A DNA stretch of 64,000 nucleotides from Clostridia bacterium (lineage in GTDB: Bacteria; Bacillota; Clostridia; Christensenellales; CAG-138): contig JAFRRO010000049.1 in the NCBI GenBank assembly GCA_017428025.1, positions 1 to 64,000 of the forward strand. The letters run 5' to 3'. Below the pieces are notes generated by a model. The model had not been told where the DNA came from. It saw only the letters and a program-made list of their open reading frames with translations, and did not search any database. The position numbers were made by a program, and so were the translations under genes. Shown here one piece after another: positions 16,131-21,910 of this stretch. Each line of letters begins with the position of its first letter. Position 1 is the stretch's first letter.

Positions 16131-18380
16131 ATGGCGATCAAAGAAGGGATCAAAAAGAGAATCAAACTTGATTTGTACGAGACGTGGACCGTCCTCGGCG
16201 GATTCTTGGGAGCGCTGCTTCTGACGCGTGTGCGCATCCACGGCGCGCACATGCCGCTTGCGCTCGGGATGCTGCTCGGGTGCGCGCTTGCGGGCGTCGA
16301 ACCGTATGCCGTGCTCGGCGGAATCGTGCTCGGCGCGATGATCGAATCGCCGCCGCTCTGGCAGACGATCTGCGCCGCAATCCTGTATGTCGTCGCGCTG
16401 CGGGCTGCCGAGTGGATGAAGAAAAAGACGCCGCTGCGCGTTTCGATCCTGCTGTTTTGCGCATCGTTCCTTGCCTCGATGCCGCTGCTTGTGCGAACCG
16501 GCGCGATCGAACTGCTGTACGGCGCGGCTTCGCTTGCGATTGCCGCCGCGTTCGGCATCTGCGTCAGGCGCGTGCTGCAGTCGGCAAGGCATCTGTCCGT
16601 CGAACGGGTTCTGACGGACGCGGAACAGACGATGTTCGCACTTGTGATCGGCGCGCTTCTGCTTGCGGTTTCCGAATTGCGGTTTCTCGGCTGGTCGGCG
16701 TCGGTTACGCTCCTTCTGCTGCTGACGCAGCTGTTTGTCACGGCGCGCGGACTGTTCGGCGCGGCGGCCGGTACGCTCTGGTCGTCGCTGCTCATCCTGT
16801 ACACGAACGGCGATCCGCTGTTGATCGGCGCGGTTGCGCTCGGCGCGCTCTCCGGTACCGCGGTGCGGCGCGAAGGCAGACCGCTGACGGCGCTGATGTT
16901 CTTCTGCGCAAGCCTGCTGTTTCATACGATCCTCTCCGATGCCGCATTTGCGATGAATCTCCAGAATCTGCTGTGCGGTTCGCTGCTCTTTCTGCTGATG
17001 CCGAAACGCTGGACGGATTGGCTGCAAAGCGTCACCGACGCGTCTGCGCTGTCCGAACAGTCGATGCGAAGTGCGATAGAACGCATCGAATACGGTGCGT
17101 CGAACGAACTGATGCGCATGGGCAGACTGCTGTCCGGCTTTTCGGGGATGTTCCGCACCGCGCTGCAGGAGGAGGACGCCGTGAAGCGCTGGACGATGCA
17201 GGGCGCGTTGACCGTCTGCCGCGGATGCAAGGCGAAGGAGATCTGCTGGAAGGACGCGTATGCGATGCAGGAGGCGATCATGCAGGTTGCCGACGATGCG
17301 GCGGAGGGACGGCACGCTGTGCTGCCCGATCCGATCGATCCGGACTGCAGAAGATTCGCCGATCTGCGCGCCGCGGTGCTTTTATCCTATCAGCAGGCGC
17401 AGAACCGAAACGCCGTCTGCGAACGGGTGCGCGAGCAGACCGGTCTCATTGACCGGCAGTTTGTAGGCGCGGGCGAAGCGCTCTGCGATTATGCAAAACG
17501 GATGCGCGGCAGGGACAGGGAAACCGACCTGATGTGCGGAAGGATCCGGACGGCGCTCAAGGAAAGCGGCGTGCGCGTCGTAGCGGTCGACCGGTACGAG
17601 CTTGGCGGCACGGAAATCCTGTCGGTCTGCGTGCGACGTCCGCTGCAGCTGAAACGGTCGATCCTGCTCGAAACCTTGCGCATTGCCTGCGGGTTTCGCC
17701 TGAGGATCGTCGAGAGCGAGATCGAGCGCGATACGGTCACGATGCTGTTCGAACGGGATGCGATTCTGCACGCCTCGATGCGCGTTTCGCGCACCTGCGA
17801 TCCGCTGTCGGTCAGCGGCGACGCGACGGGCGAATGCCGTCTGATCGGCGGGCATGTGTGCTTTGCCCTGTCCGACGGCATGGGCAGCGGTCAGAGCGCG
17901 CGAGAGGAGAGCGAAGCGGCGATCGATCTGCTGTTCCGGTTGTACCACGCGGGCATGCAGCGCGAACTGATCTATGAAAACGTCAACCGATTGCTGCTTG
18001 CGCGAAGCGACACCGAGATGTACGCGACGCTCGATGCGGTGTCGATCGACCTCAATACCGGCGAAGCCGAGCTGTTGAAATACGGCGCGCCGCCGTGTTA
18101 TCTCTTGCGCGAAGGCAAAGTCAAACCGATCTTCGGCGAGGCGCTGCCCTGCGGCATCCTTGCGGAAGCCAAGCCGAGCGTGATCCGCATGAAACTCAAA
18201 CCGAACGACCGGCTCGTTCTGTGTTCGGACGGCGTGCAGGATGCGCTCAGAGACGGACCGGAGAAGACCATCCGTTCCGCGTCCGGCGCATACGAAGCGA
18301 TGGGGGACCGCATTCTCAAAGCGGCGCAGAAAAGCGGCGGATCGGATGATATGACCGTTCTGGTCATACGCGTCGCATGA
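16131..18380 (+). CDS. spoIIE: Stage II sporulation protein E (SpoIIE)
   Basis: Polar-septum phosphatase that dephosphorylates SpoIIAA and so frees sigma-F in the forespore. About 749 residues: an N-terminal region with around ten membrane segments (roughly 15-300), a central oligomerisation region with a Cys-rich patch (CRGCKAKEICW), and a C-terminal PP2C phosphatase domain with FALSDGMGSGQSAREES (metal aspartate and the SpoIIE DGMGSG signature), LDAVSIDL and the closing GGSDDMTVLVIRV. I start at the ATG after GAATACAATACGGGC. No Shine-Dalgarno is visible; the frame is open further upstream but only through non-coding sequence. It is the first gene of an operon with spoIIGA and sigE. Confidence 0.92.
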   Translation: MAIKEGIKKRIKLDLYETWTVLGGFLGALLLTRVRIHGAHMPLALGMLLGCALAGVEPYAVLGGIVLGAMIESPPLWQTICAAILYVVALRAAEWMKKKTPLRVSILLFCASFLASMPLLVRTGAIELLYGAASLAIAAAFGICVRRVLQSARHLSVERVLTDAEQTMFALVIGALLLAVSELRFLGWSASVTLLLLLTQLFVTARGLFGAAAGTLWSSLLILYTNGDPLLIGAVALGALSGTAVRREGRPLTALMFFCASLLFHTILSDAAFAMNLQNLLCGSLLFLLMPKRWTDWLQSVTDASALSEQSMRSAIERIEYGASNELMRMGRLLSGFSGMFRTALQEEDAVKRWTMQGALTVCRGCKAKEICWKDAYAMQEAIMQVADDAAEGRHAVLPDPIDPDCRRFADLRAAVLLSYQQAQNRNAVCERVREQTGLIDRQFVGAGEALCDYAKRMRGRDRETDLMCGRIRTALKESGVRVVAVDRYELGGTEILSVCVRRPLQLKRSILLETLRIACGFRLRIVESEIERDTVTMLFERDAILHASMRVSRTCDPLSVSGDATGECRLIGGHVCFALSDGMGSGQSAREESEAAIDLLFRLYHAGMQRELIYENVNRLLLARSDTEMYATLDAVSIDLNTGEAELLKYGAPPCYLLREGKVKPIFGEALPCGILAEAKPSVIRMKLKPNDRLVLCSDGVQDALRDGPEKTIRSASGAYEAMGDRILKAAQKSGGSDDMTVLVIRVA

Positions 18381-19438
18381 AGCTGTCGGTCGAAGCGTTC
18401 CTGTTCGACAATGCGCTGATGAACTACTGCGTCTACGCACTGACCGGCGCTTGGATCGGCGTGCGGATCCGGCTGTTGCCGACGCTGACCGTCTCGCTGA
18501 TCGGCGCGGTCTACGCGCTGCTGTCGCTGTTTGTCGAACCGCTTCTGCGCGCGTGGTATTGCAGGGTTCCGTGCTTTCTGCTTTTCTCGCTGCCGCTGTT
18601 TCGAACGGCGGGCACGCCTCTGCGCACACTGCCGTTTCTGCTGCTGTCCGCAGCGACGGTCGGCGGCAGCGCGCTGATGCTGACACTGCTGCTCGGCGGA
18701 AGCATCACAAAGGACGGCACGATTTTAGGCACCGTACCGCTTCGCGCCGCACTCGTTTCCGCGGCGATCGCAAGCATGCTTCCGCGGCTGATGCGCGCGA
18801 TGCTTTTCAGAAGAAACCTGTCCGCGCTGTATACCTCGGTCGTCGTGCGGCTGAAAACGCATACCTACCGCATGACCGCACTGATCGACAGCGGGAATCT
18901 TTTGAAGGAACCGGCGACGGGGCTACCCGTTATGCTGATGGATCGCGCGCCGGACCGGCCGCTGCTGCCGGTGCCGTATGCGAACGCTTCCAAAAGCGGC
19001 GTTCTGTACGGCGAACGCGCGCGCTCGGTGATCCTTTCGGAATACGGCGTTGCCGTCGACTGCGTCTGCGCGCAGTCTCCGCTGCCGATCGCGCATGCGG
19101 AGGCGATTCTGCCGGAAGCCGTACTGCCGGTGAAATGGAGGACAAAACATGATCAAAAGGCTTTTGCGCATCTGGTCGCGCCTGCTTTTGCGGCTGCACG
19201 TTGGCAGACGCACTATCTGCTGGTACATTCACACAAACGAGGGCTTGCCCGCACCGCTCGATCCGGAGGAGGAGGCGCGCTGTATCGCGCTCGCGCCGAC
19301 CGACCGCGAAGCGAAGGACAAACTGATCGTGCACAATCTGCGGCTTGTCGTATATCTGGCGCGCAAGTTCGAGAACACCGGCGTGCAGACGGAGGATCTG
19401 ATCAGCATCGGTACGATCGGGCTCATCAAAGCGGTTGA
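18377..19438 (+). CDS. spoIIGA: Pro-sigma-E processing protease SpoIIGA; C-terminus uncertain
   Basis: Membrane-bound aspartic protease that cleaves the pro-sequence of sigma-E in the mother cell after a signal from the forespore. The N-terminal half holds five or so membrane segments (about 10-145), then the protease domain with the catalytic [12 protein letters not shown] (Asp171 by count). Recognisable sequence ends near residue 253 (ILPEAVLP). The frame does not stop there but continues 290 nt across sigE in another frame, giving an Arg/Ala-rich shadow tail. A shift into the neighbouring frame would end at TGA 19150-19152, exactly overlapping the sigE ATG. A frameshift or lost stop is likely. 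Overlaps spoIIE by 4 nt. Confidence 0.8.
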
Positions 19439-19862
19439 AACCTTCAAATCCGAAAAGAAGATCAAGCTTGCAACCTACGCGTCCCGCTGCATCGAAAACG
19501 AGATTCTGATGCATCTGCGCCGCACCACAAAGCTCAAGCTCGAAGTCAGCTTCGAAGAACCGCTGAACGTCGACTGGGACGGCAACGAACTGCTTCTGGA
19601 GGATATCCTCGGCACCGATCCGGACGTCGTAAGCCGCGATATGGAGGACGAGGCGGAGCGCGATCTGCTGAATCGGGCGTTGGAAAAACTTTCGGACCGC
19701 GAACGCGACATCATCGATCTCAGATTCGGTCTCCGCAACGGCGAGGCACAGACGCAAAAGCAGGTTGCCGACGCGATGGGCATTTCGCAAAGCTATATCA
19801 GCCGCCTGGAAAAGCGGATCATGAAACGACTCAAGCGCGATCTTCTGCGGATGCAGTCATGA
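19149..19862 (+). CDS. sigE: RNA polymerase sporulation sigma factor, pro-sigma-E
   Basis: Directs early mother-cell transcription. 237 residues. The first 27 or so ([15 protein letters not shown], basic and amphipathic, then [10 protein letters not shown]) match the pro-sequence of Bacillus pro-sigma-E that tethers it to the membrane until SpoIIGA cuts. Region 2 is clear ([46 protein letters not shown]), as is region 4 ([24 protein letters not shown]). GGAGG at 19138-19142 gives good spacing to the ATG. It ends tail to tail with sigG, with a 6-bp overlap and no terminator. Confidence 0.97.
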
Positions 19863-20636
19863 TTTGACGTACTTTTCAAGCTGCTTCAGCGCGCTCTTTT
19901 CAAGACGCGAGACCTGCGCCTGCGAAATGCCGATCTCCTTCGAGTCCTCCACCTGCGTCTTGCAGGCGTAATAGCGCAGCTTGAGTATTTTCTGGTCGCG
20001 TTCGGACAGGTGTGAAATGCCTTCCTTGAGCGCAATCGCGTTCAGCCGACGCGTCTCGGTATCCTTCGGATCGCGGATCTGGTCGAGAACGCACATGGCG
20101 TCGTCGTCGCTGTTGAATACGGGATCGTACAGACTCACCGGATCGCTGACGGCGTCGAGCGCAAAGACCACGTCCGGTTCGGGAATCCCGAGCTCCGCGG
20201 CGATCTCGGAAACGCTCGGCTCGCGCGAGAGCGACTCGGTCAGCTTGAGCTTTGCCTGCATCGCGCGGTATGCGGTATCGCGCATCGAACGCGGCACGCG
20301 CACGGCGCTGTAATCGCGCAGATGCCGCCGGATCTCGCCTGCGATCATCGGCACCGCGTAGGTCGAAAACCGTACGTCCTGACTGAGATCGAAGCCCGCG
20401 ACGGACTTCAGAAGCCCGATGCATCCGACCTGAAAGAGATCGTCGGCAAGCTCGCCGCGTCCGGAAAACCGCTGCACCACGGACAGAACGAGACGGAGGT
20501 TCGCGTAGATGAACTTCTCCCGTGCCTGCTCATCGCCGGATTTCGCCCGTATCAGCAATTCGCGCATCTCTTCCGGCTTCAGACGCGGCAGCTGCGATGT
20601 ATCGATGCTCGTGATTTCCACTTTCTGCAAGTGCAT
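19857..20636 (-). CDS. sigG: RNA polymerase sporulation sigma factor sigma-G
   Basis: Controls late forespore transcription after engulfment. The [24 protein letters not shown] opening is diagnostic for sigma-G, followed by region 2 ([52 protein letters not shown]), [14 protein letters not shown] and region 4 ([21 protein letters not shown]). GGAGG is at 20643-20639; ATG 20636 and GTG 20639 are too close to it, so initiation may really be at TTG 20630, 8 nt away. Unlike the usual spoIIGA-sigE-sigG order in one direction, here sigG is inverted and convergent with sigE. Confidence 0.96.
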
Positions 20637-20649
20637 CACCTCCGACCGA

Positions 20650-20693: not shown

Positions 20694-20722
20694 TTGACAG
20701 ACTTTTCCAATCGTGGTAGGAT
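20694..20722 (+). promoter_or_regulatory. Promoter of the metallophosphoesterase lipoprotein gene
   Basis: Perfect TTGACA (20694-20699), 17 bp, TAGGAT (20717-20722), followed by GAGGTGA at 20743-20749 as ribosome binding site. Confidence 0.65.
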
Positions 20723-20755
20723 AGTATCGAACGATCGGAAGCGAGGTGACCGTAT

Positions 20756-21910
20756 ATCAAACGGATTGCGGCGGCAGTTCTGTCCGGCATCTTCTTGATG
20801 CTGTTTTTCGCCTGCGTCAAAGTGCCCGAAACGCCGCAGACAACGCCTGCGGCACAGGTGCAGACGGAGGACGTCACGATCGTTGCCGAGACCGACATCG
20901 TTCCCGCAGCGGCGGTTCAGACGCCGGTTCCGATGCCGACGCCCGACGCCACGGAGCCGCCGACACAGCAGCCGACCGATGCGCCGAGTCCTTCCGCACA
21001 GACCGGGACCTATGCGGCGGCGGAAGGCGTCTATACGATCGCATGGATCAGCGATCCGCAGCACTATTCAAAGAAGTTTCCGGAATACTACTATGCGATG
21101 ACCGGTTTTTTGCGCGACCATTGCGAGGAAATGCATCTCAAATACGTCATCAATACCGGCGATCTTGTGCACAACACCGATCTCGATTCGGAATGGCAGG
21201 TCGCTCTGACCGCGCAGTCCTATATCGACGACATCCCGAACGGCGTGCTTGCGGGCAATCATGACATTCTCGATCCGTACGGGTACAAGATCTTCACCAA
21301 GTATTTCGGCGAAAAGCATTATGCGGACAAGCCGTGGTACGGCGGTTCGTTCGAGGACAACCGCGGGCACTACGACCTTCTCACGATCGGCGAAACCGAC
21401 TACATCTTCGTCTATATGGGTTTTGCGCCGACCAAGAAGGCGTTTACATGGGTGTACGATACGTTCCGGGCATATCCGGACCGCGTCGGCGTGCTCTGCC
21501 TGCACGATTACTATACCAAGACGCAGACGCTCTCTGAGGACGGCAAGAAATGGTATGATCTCGTCGTCAAGCGGACGCCGAACGTCTATATGGTCCTGTG
21601 CGGACACAAGTACGGCGCGTACTGTTTCCCGGAATCGTTCGACGACGACGGAGACGGCAAGGCGGACCGCACGGTTTATCAGATGCTGTTCAACTATCAG
21701 GCGTCGCTGCACGACGGCGGCGGGGGATACCTCCGGCTGATCCAGATCGACGAAGCGGCGGGGACGATGCACAACATGACCTATTCGCCGGTGTTCGAGG
21801 ATTTCAACCGGTTCGATGATCCGAGCAACCGCGAGGAGTACTATCCGTTTGACGAACGGAACGAGGAATTCACGCTTCCGTTGCCGTGGCGGATCGATCA
21901 AGCATCTTAG
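20756..21910 (+). CDS. Exported lipoprotein with calcineurin-like metallophosphoesterase domain; probable AUC start
   Basis: Reading back from the conserved domain, the frame gives KRIAAAVLSGIFLMLFFAC, an ideal lipoprotein signal with Cys as the lipobox residue, followed by a Pro/Thr-rich linker to about residue 85. The phosphoesterase core has ISDPQH, NTGDLVHN, LAGNHD, LHDYY and LCGHKYG in order, the five metal-binding blocks of the family. No ATG, GTG or TTG precedes the signal peptide; the codon 6 nt after GAGGTGA is ATC at 20756. The TTG at 20795 or ATG at 20798 would cut the signal off. Substrate unknown; nucleotides or phospholipids are possible. Confidence 0.75.
   Translation: MKRIAAAVLSGIFLMLFFACVKVPETPQTTPAAQVQTEDVTIVAETDIVPAAAVQTPVPMPTPDATEPPTQQPTDAPSPSAQTGTYAAAEGVYTIAWISDPQHYSKKFPEYYYAMTGFLRDHCEEMHLKYVINTGDLVHNTDLDSEWQVALTAQSYIDDIPNGVLAGNHDILDPYGYKIFTKYFGEKHYADKPWYGGSFEDNRGHYDLLTIGETDYIFVYMGFAPTKKAFTWVYDTFRAYPDRVGVLCLHDYYTKTQTLSEDGKKWYDLVVKRTPNVYMVLCGHKYGAYCFPESFDDDGDGKADRTVYQMLFNYQASLHDGGGGYLRLIQIDEAAGTMHNMTYSPVFEDFNRFDDPSNREEYYPFDERNEEFTLPLPWRIDQAS

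Follow-up and report, generated by a model that had tools for sequence, protein, structure and literature searches.

A probable AUC start codon behind an extended Shine–Dalgarno sequence in a metallophosphoesterase lipoprotein gene of a Clostridia bacterium

We analyzed a window of 64,000 nucleotides (positions 1 to 64,000 of contig JAFRRO010000049.1) from a Clostridia bacterium. Within it, a gene of 384 codons plus a stop (20756–21910, + strand) was assigned to a metallophosphoesterase lipoprotein from its PF00149 match, its fold match, and its motif residues. The gene is divergent from sigG (19857–20630, − strand), which matches NF006071 SigG with 373.8 bits (cut-off 372) and likely starts at TTG 20630–20628 (−) behind GGAGGTGAT. 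When the sigG start of the window (20628–20643, −) was compared with the aligned sites of L007–L017 and L019–L021, 13 of the 15 genomes had TTG at the aligned place, the exceptions being L008 with GTG and L009 with CTG. A long Shine–Dalgarno (SD) sequence, GGAGGTG, precedes the codon. L009 also has an in-frame GTG as an alternative to the CTG, and in L015, L016, L017, and L021, a TGA overlaps the SD. The ORF at 19149–19862 looks like that of a putative sporulation sigma factor, and the ORF at 18377 scores 62.6 bits against SpoIIGA, short of the family cut-off of 209.55.

The product of the lipoprotein gene is, from its sequence and a structure model, a predicted exported lipoprotein of the calcineurin-like metallophosphoesterase superfamily. 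It matches Metallophos PF00149 with 33.2 bits (cut-off 21.5, E 8.9e-8); no NCBIfam family matched at E 0.001, and no PDB sequence matched at E 0.01. Calcineurin-like phosphoesterases carry metal-binding motifs of the pattern D, GD, GNHD, H, and GH. Across seven sequences, D100, D136, N168-H169-D170, H205, H250, and H284 are invariant; at the first-motif position H103, the most distant of the seven (P0007) has Trp instead. The structure model built from these seven sequences has a mean pLDDT of 71 and a pTM of 0.71, with a helix at residues 2–19 and very low confidence in the linker (20–83). The best Foldseek match was chain B of the integrative model 9a6c (YYDD-YYDB), followed by a purple acid phosphatase and Lmo2642, with TM-scores of ~0.45. 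The purple acid phosphatase (1ute) and Lmo2642 (2xmo) resemble the product in predicted fold (Foldseek E of about 1e-8) and share its metal-binding motifs, but the sequence identity is only 13–14% and the TM-score is about 0.45 of the query.

The lipoprotein signal, IKRIAAAVLSGIFLMLFFAC, occupies 20 codons up to the lipobox Cys (20756–20815, +). It was predicted from a charged n-region (KR), a hydrophobic stretch, and a lipobox Cys in FFAC, which is codon 20 (TGC, 20813–20815) and is followed by a proline/threonine linker. Following the lipobox rule, cleavage would occur before C20.

The preliminary description of this locus had placed an ATC in frame directly before the signal, 6 nt after GAGGTGA, with no ATG, GTG, or TTG between the upstream in-frame TGA and the signal. 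Both points were confirmed in the sequence. Read directly, the start site is ...GCGAGGTGACCGTAT, ATC, AAACGGATT..., with the ATC at 20756–20758 (+); GAGGTGACCGTATATCAAACGG is the site as assembled in the window. The in-frame stop TGA (20747–20749) lies 9 nt upstream of the ATC and is followed by CCG TAT ATC, after which the frame continues AAA CGG ATT GCG ... TTC GCC TGC. The open frame spans 20750–21910, and its translation begins PYIKRIAAAVLSGIFLMLFFAC. An extended SD, GAGGTGA (20743–20749, +), overlaps the TGA and is complementary to the 3′ tail of 16S rRNA, which we take to be the standard one in this genus. The gap to the ATC is 6 nt from GAGGTGA and 9 nt from GAGG, that is, initiation spacing. 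A GTG at 20746, within the SD, is out of frame, with no sign of a frameshift from it, and no ATG, GTG, or TTG stands in frame between the TGA and TTG 20795; TTG 20795 and ATG 20798 are the only such codons before the Cys.

Could translation begin at this TTG or ATG (20795–20800, +)? No other canonical codon comes earlier in the frame, and initiation at either would give a cytoplasmic or inefficiently exported protein. Counted from the ATC, they are codons 14 and 15, both within the hydrophobic stretch of the signal. As had been anticipated in the earlier description, a start here would delete the signal and leave the Cys: K-R and most of the hydrophobic stretch would be lost, and the lipobox Cys and the proline/threonine linker would remain. 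Codons 2–19 have kept K-R and their hydrophobicity even though 10 of these 18 residues differ between the window and its congener L007. Initiation at 20795 or 20798 is disfavored because no SD match of 4 or more nt precedes either codon, no orthologue has a conserved Met at that position, and the signal would be lost; we regard it as very improbable.

How often would an SD and a non-canonical codon be found together upstream of a gene? Using simple gene calls of our own, we observed an SD match of 6 or more nt with a non-canonical codon upstream of all canonical starts in 18 of 235 genes on the window's 247-kb contig and in 17 of 173 predicted genes on a 191-kb stretch of one congener. Among these 35, ATC occurs in the window gene alone, and the only other ATN is one ATT, directly before an SD-served ATG. 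The fold of the RNA leader at the start showed nothing special (z −0.04). A terminator-like hairpin in the signal region (20785–20803) was considered and rejected, one being found against a shuffle mean of 0.4, with no matching stem by eye in L007.

The gene was compared across 23 genomes of the genus, counting that of the window, with one genome per species. All 23 gave some match. A close orthologue was found in 20 of them, namely the window and 19 others at 53–73% identity (L001, L007–L025); in G003, G010, and G016, long stretches matched only at about 31% identity or lower. According to the search tables, L012 (G009) and L023 (G006) have one stop within the matched stretch.

Upstream of the window gene lies a sigma-70-type promoter, TTGACA-N17-TAGGAT (20694–20722, +), found once compared with a mean of 0.1 in shuffled sequences. 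From its position we infer that the transcript starts at about 20729–20731, which leaves a leader of some 26 nt. With slight variation, the element TTGACAGACTTTTCCAATCGTGrTAcGATA is common to 15 of the 20 genus orthologues, at most 62 nt from the start; a 16th match of the pattern, in L025, is unrelated sequence and was left out of the 15. Allowing for up to three mismatches, the 22-nt core of the element has a single occurrence in the genome, and an operator shared with other genes was rejected on this count. The 17-nt spacer is nearly invariant in the 15 species, and its 3′ part and the −10 make up a short palindromic stretch, ATCGT-GrT-ACGAT, which is possibly an operator; the copy in the window is imperfect. 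In genus g20 of the same family (L043, L044, L045, L048, and L050), the ATG of the orthologue follows 6 nt after a −10-like hexamer (TACTAT, TAGGAT, or TACCAT), with no SD by eye, resembling a leaderless transcript; the window genus, in contrast, has a leader with an SD.

Aligning the orthologues was a check that the preliminary description had proposed for its probable AUC start. The results support that start: the ATC sits at the predicted start position of the orthologues in the 14 promoter-sharing congeners, where the aligned codon is GTG, ATG, TTG, or ATC with the same signal behind it. Across the 15 promoter-sharing orthologues, window included, the starts, which are predictions assigned from SD spacing and signal, are GTG in eight, ATG in three, TTG in two, and ATC in two. 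K-R follows the aligned start codon in 13 of the 15 and R-H in the other two, and in 12, the window among them, the lipobox Cys falls at codon 20; one of these 12, L021, has a second Cys candidate at codon 16. Canonical codons also occur 18 nt upstream of the starts assigned to L012 and L013, and 15 nt upstream of that of L008, there ahead of its in-frame stop. All five orthologues without the promoter element (L018, L022–L025) have ATG. A mechanical count on the window contig found SDs of at least 5 nt before the canonical starts of 147 of 237 predicted genes (ATG 128, TTG 12, and GTG 7). Non-ATG starts are therefore found in 12 of the 15 promoter-sharing orthologues compared with 19 of these 147 genes (Fisher p about 1e-7, which overstates the excess, as the 15 orthologues are mutually related).

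In the protein tree, the window groups with L007 and L008 (94/91), L007 and L008 are sisters (96/90), and L019, with ATG, comes next (86/87). The leaders of the three are GAGGTGACCGTAT before ATC in the window, GAGGTGATCGTC before ATC in L007, and GAGGTGACGAAAC before TTG in L008. L008 places its TTG at exactly the SD spacing of the window (a 6-nt gap), likewise with a TGA overlapping the SD. L007, the closest relative, is the only one of the 14 other promoter-sharing orthologues with ATC at the aligned position. It differs from the window by 1 nt in length between SD and ATC, and the alignment from the ATC to the Cys is gap-free. The support from L007 is ambiguous because its 1-nt shorter gap, compared with both the window and L008, puts a GTG within its SD in frame, 9 nt before the ATC; another in-frame GTG stands 36 nt before it. 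Consequently, L007 supports an ATC start without proving it, and the codon may instead encode an internal Ile.

It is plausible, at somewhat less than even chances, that the AUC start is specific to the window species, with L007 starting at its in-frame GUG, so that there would be neither a conserved AUC nor selection for one. This reading is compatible with an AUC start in the window itself and is a rival to any conserved role. It draws on the in-frame GTG of L007 and the TTG of L008, and on the fact that ATC codons of the window are also ATC in L007 about half the time (8 of 15, the start ATC counted). On the other hand, the GTG of L007 lies within the SD, no SD was seen before it, the 9-nt SD of L007, GAGGTGATC, is better placed for the ATC, and the shorter gap is limited to L007 within the group of three.

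The same comparison bears on an assembly or base-calling error, by which 20756–20758 would be a canonical codon in reality, or the sequence 1 nt shorter, so that GTG 20746 would come into frame as the corresponding GTG is in L007. The window genome is a draft assembly in 95 contigs. However, ATC is also read in L007, and the SD-to-start distance of the window is shared by L008, so the window spacing is not the odd one out. We consider an error improbable.

A third possibility is that the start codon was lost recently, leaving the gene silenced or nearly so in the window species and bound to decay. One substitution turns ATG into ATC, and it would normally reduce expression strongly. Against this, the frame of 384 codons is intact, the promoter and SD are retained, and ATC is present in L007 too. 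Decay is unlikely, indeed very much so, because the window branch in the protein tree is not long (0.28 compared with 0.27 and 0.22) and the active-site residues are intact and invariant. The comparison with L007, at 73% amino-acid identity with 68 of 127 fourfold sites identical, likewise speaks against decay.

Does a weaker codon go with a stronger SD? The contiguous SD match is 7 nt in the window, 9 nt in L007, and 7 nt in L008; elsewhere it is 5 nt in all eight GTG orthologues, 5 nt in L020 (TTG), and 5–6 nt in the three ATG orthologues. The duplex energies are −17.2 for the window, −15.3 for L007, −11.4 for L008, and −11.6 for the TTG of L020, compared with −9.3 to −9.5 for the eight GTG orthologues and −9.5 to −15.4 for the ATG orthologues. 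Only the lengths of the contiguous match were used because the duplex energies include pairs outside the SD core. Any link between SD and codon would come from one group of three species, and the weak TTG of L020 has no more than a 5-nt SD before it. A search for 16S rRNA in the 23 genomes gave pieces in three only, none reaching the 3′ end, and the 16S 3′-end patterns were unmatched; the common AGGAGG and GGAGGTG leaders argue for a standard 16S tail, as opposed to an altered anti-SD.

The genus also appears to use an ATC start in infC. This gene was matched in 20 of the 23 genomes, and in all 19 that cover its 5′ end the apparent start is ATC: a short spacer separates GGAGGTG from ATC GCT ACG CA(G/A) GA(T/C/A) ATG CAG ATC AA(T/C). 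The loci counted were L051 (G000:C61:9745), L052–L067, L070, and L071, the last standing for G011; L068, L069, and L072 were left out, as their 5′ end is absent. In L064, a TGA 6 nt upstream of the ATC overlaps the SD, so only the ATC or the later ATG could serve, and no well-spaced SD was seen by eye before that ATG. An altered initiator tRNA reading AUC was rejected, since the initiator anticodon-arm pattern gave a single match, a tRNA-Met with a CAT anticodon.

Taken together, we consider it probable, with good confidence, that 20756–20758 is a true AUC start, directed by the SD and read with fMet, giving low and probably IF3-sensitive output. The conserved sigma-70-type promoter would produce the short leader, in which the extended SD GAGGUGA would place the AUC in the ribosomal P site. 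The initiator tRNA, with its CAU anticodon and a third-base mismatch, would then pair with the AUC so that the protein begins with fMet, the strong SD partly offsetting the weak codon. Expression would be low, and it would probably depend on IF3 and the initiation machinery more than that of other genes, as for infC and other genes without AUG, GUG, or UUG; by this analogy, the window gene should be weakly translated and sensitive to IF3.

A practical consequence is that gene finders limited to ATG, GTG, and TTG would drop the signal peptide, and a surface lipoprotein would be seen as an apparent cytoplasmic enzyme. In addition, relatives with ATG, GTG, TTG, and ATC at one site would offer a natural series on how an extended SD offsets a weak start. 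The ATC is not uniformly kept, as L008, nested with L007, has TTG; by parsimony, the ATC may have arisen once in the ancestor of the group and then changed to TTG in L008, or it may have arisen twice. More doubtful is the broader idea that weak initiation of this phosphoesterase lipoprotein is under selection across the genus, with the window lineage reaching AUC and a co-evolved extended SD that are retained in at least two species. If true, this would be an IF3-tuned surface lipoprotein, whose steps ATG, GTG, TTG, and ATC could be traced at a single position among species of the same genus.

The window gene would add one more case to the AUC starts already on record. Myxococcus dsg has an AUC start, a case that our literature search did not recover. 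By title, nearly all literature on ATC start codons was mitochondrial, the prokaryotic items being an archaeal L12ae gene and a mutated start codon in a disrupted Neisseria gene whose function is doubtful; titles on AUC initiation codons held no bacterial case. The preliminary description was right to call AUC starts very rare, yet documented cases exist, such as infC in Streptomyces and rnhC in Listeria. In Staphylothermus marinus, an ATC start of the L12ae gene was inferred by orthologue alignment (PMC2678158), the same route as here, but in an archaeon and for a ribosomal protein gene. When an AUC start mutation was engineered in a B. subtilis rny fusion, expression was reported to be much lower (PMC10303841).

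Like the window gene, infC, which encodes IF3 and has AUU, AUC, or AUA starts, places an AUN codon behind a strong SD; in Streptomyces, its start is ATC (PMC5472188). The rare codon of infC closes a feedback loop through IF3, whereas the lipoprotein gene has no such loop and its ATC varies within the genus. Fixed non-canonical starts are reported for six conserved genes of Listeria, with rnhC (ATC) and infC (ATT) given as confirmed and with ATA and ATT lowering a reporter (PMC13068326). The rnhC of Listeria monocytogenes thus resembles the window gene in being a non-infC gene of Firmicutes with an AUC start, but it is an unrelated gene and its ATC is described as fixed in the species; in the window genome, rnhC gave a weak match below the cut-off only. 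Streptomyces sigR, with a GTC start repressed by IF3 (PMC5472188), shows how discrimination by IF3 against a non-canonical start keeps expression low, as we propose for the window gene, although sigR encodes a sigma factor and its IF3 dependence comes from genetic evidence, whereas that of the window gene is suggested by analogy. In S. aureus, cvfC1 (AUU) and ccpN (AUA) are reported to combine conserved non-canonical starts with extended SDs, and their reporters reach about 10% of AUG in poor medium (PMC13009471). These are other codons in other genes, shown by ribosome profiling and reporters, whereas the window start is predicted from sequence; the two elements, a non-canonical start and an extended SD, are the same as in the window gene.
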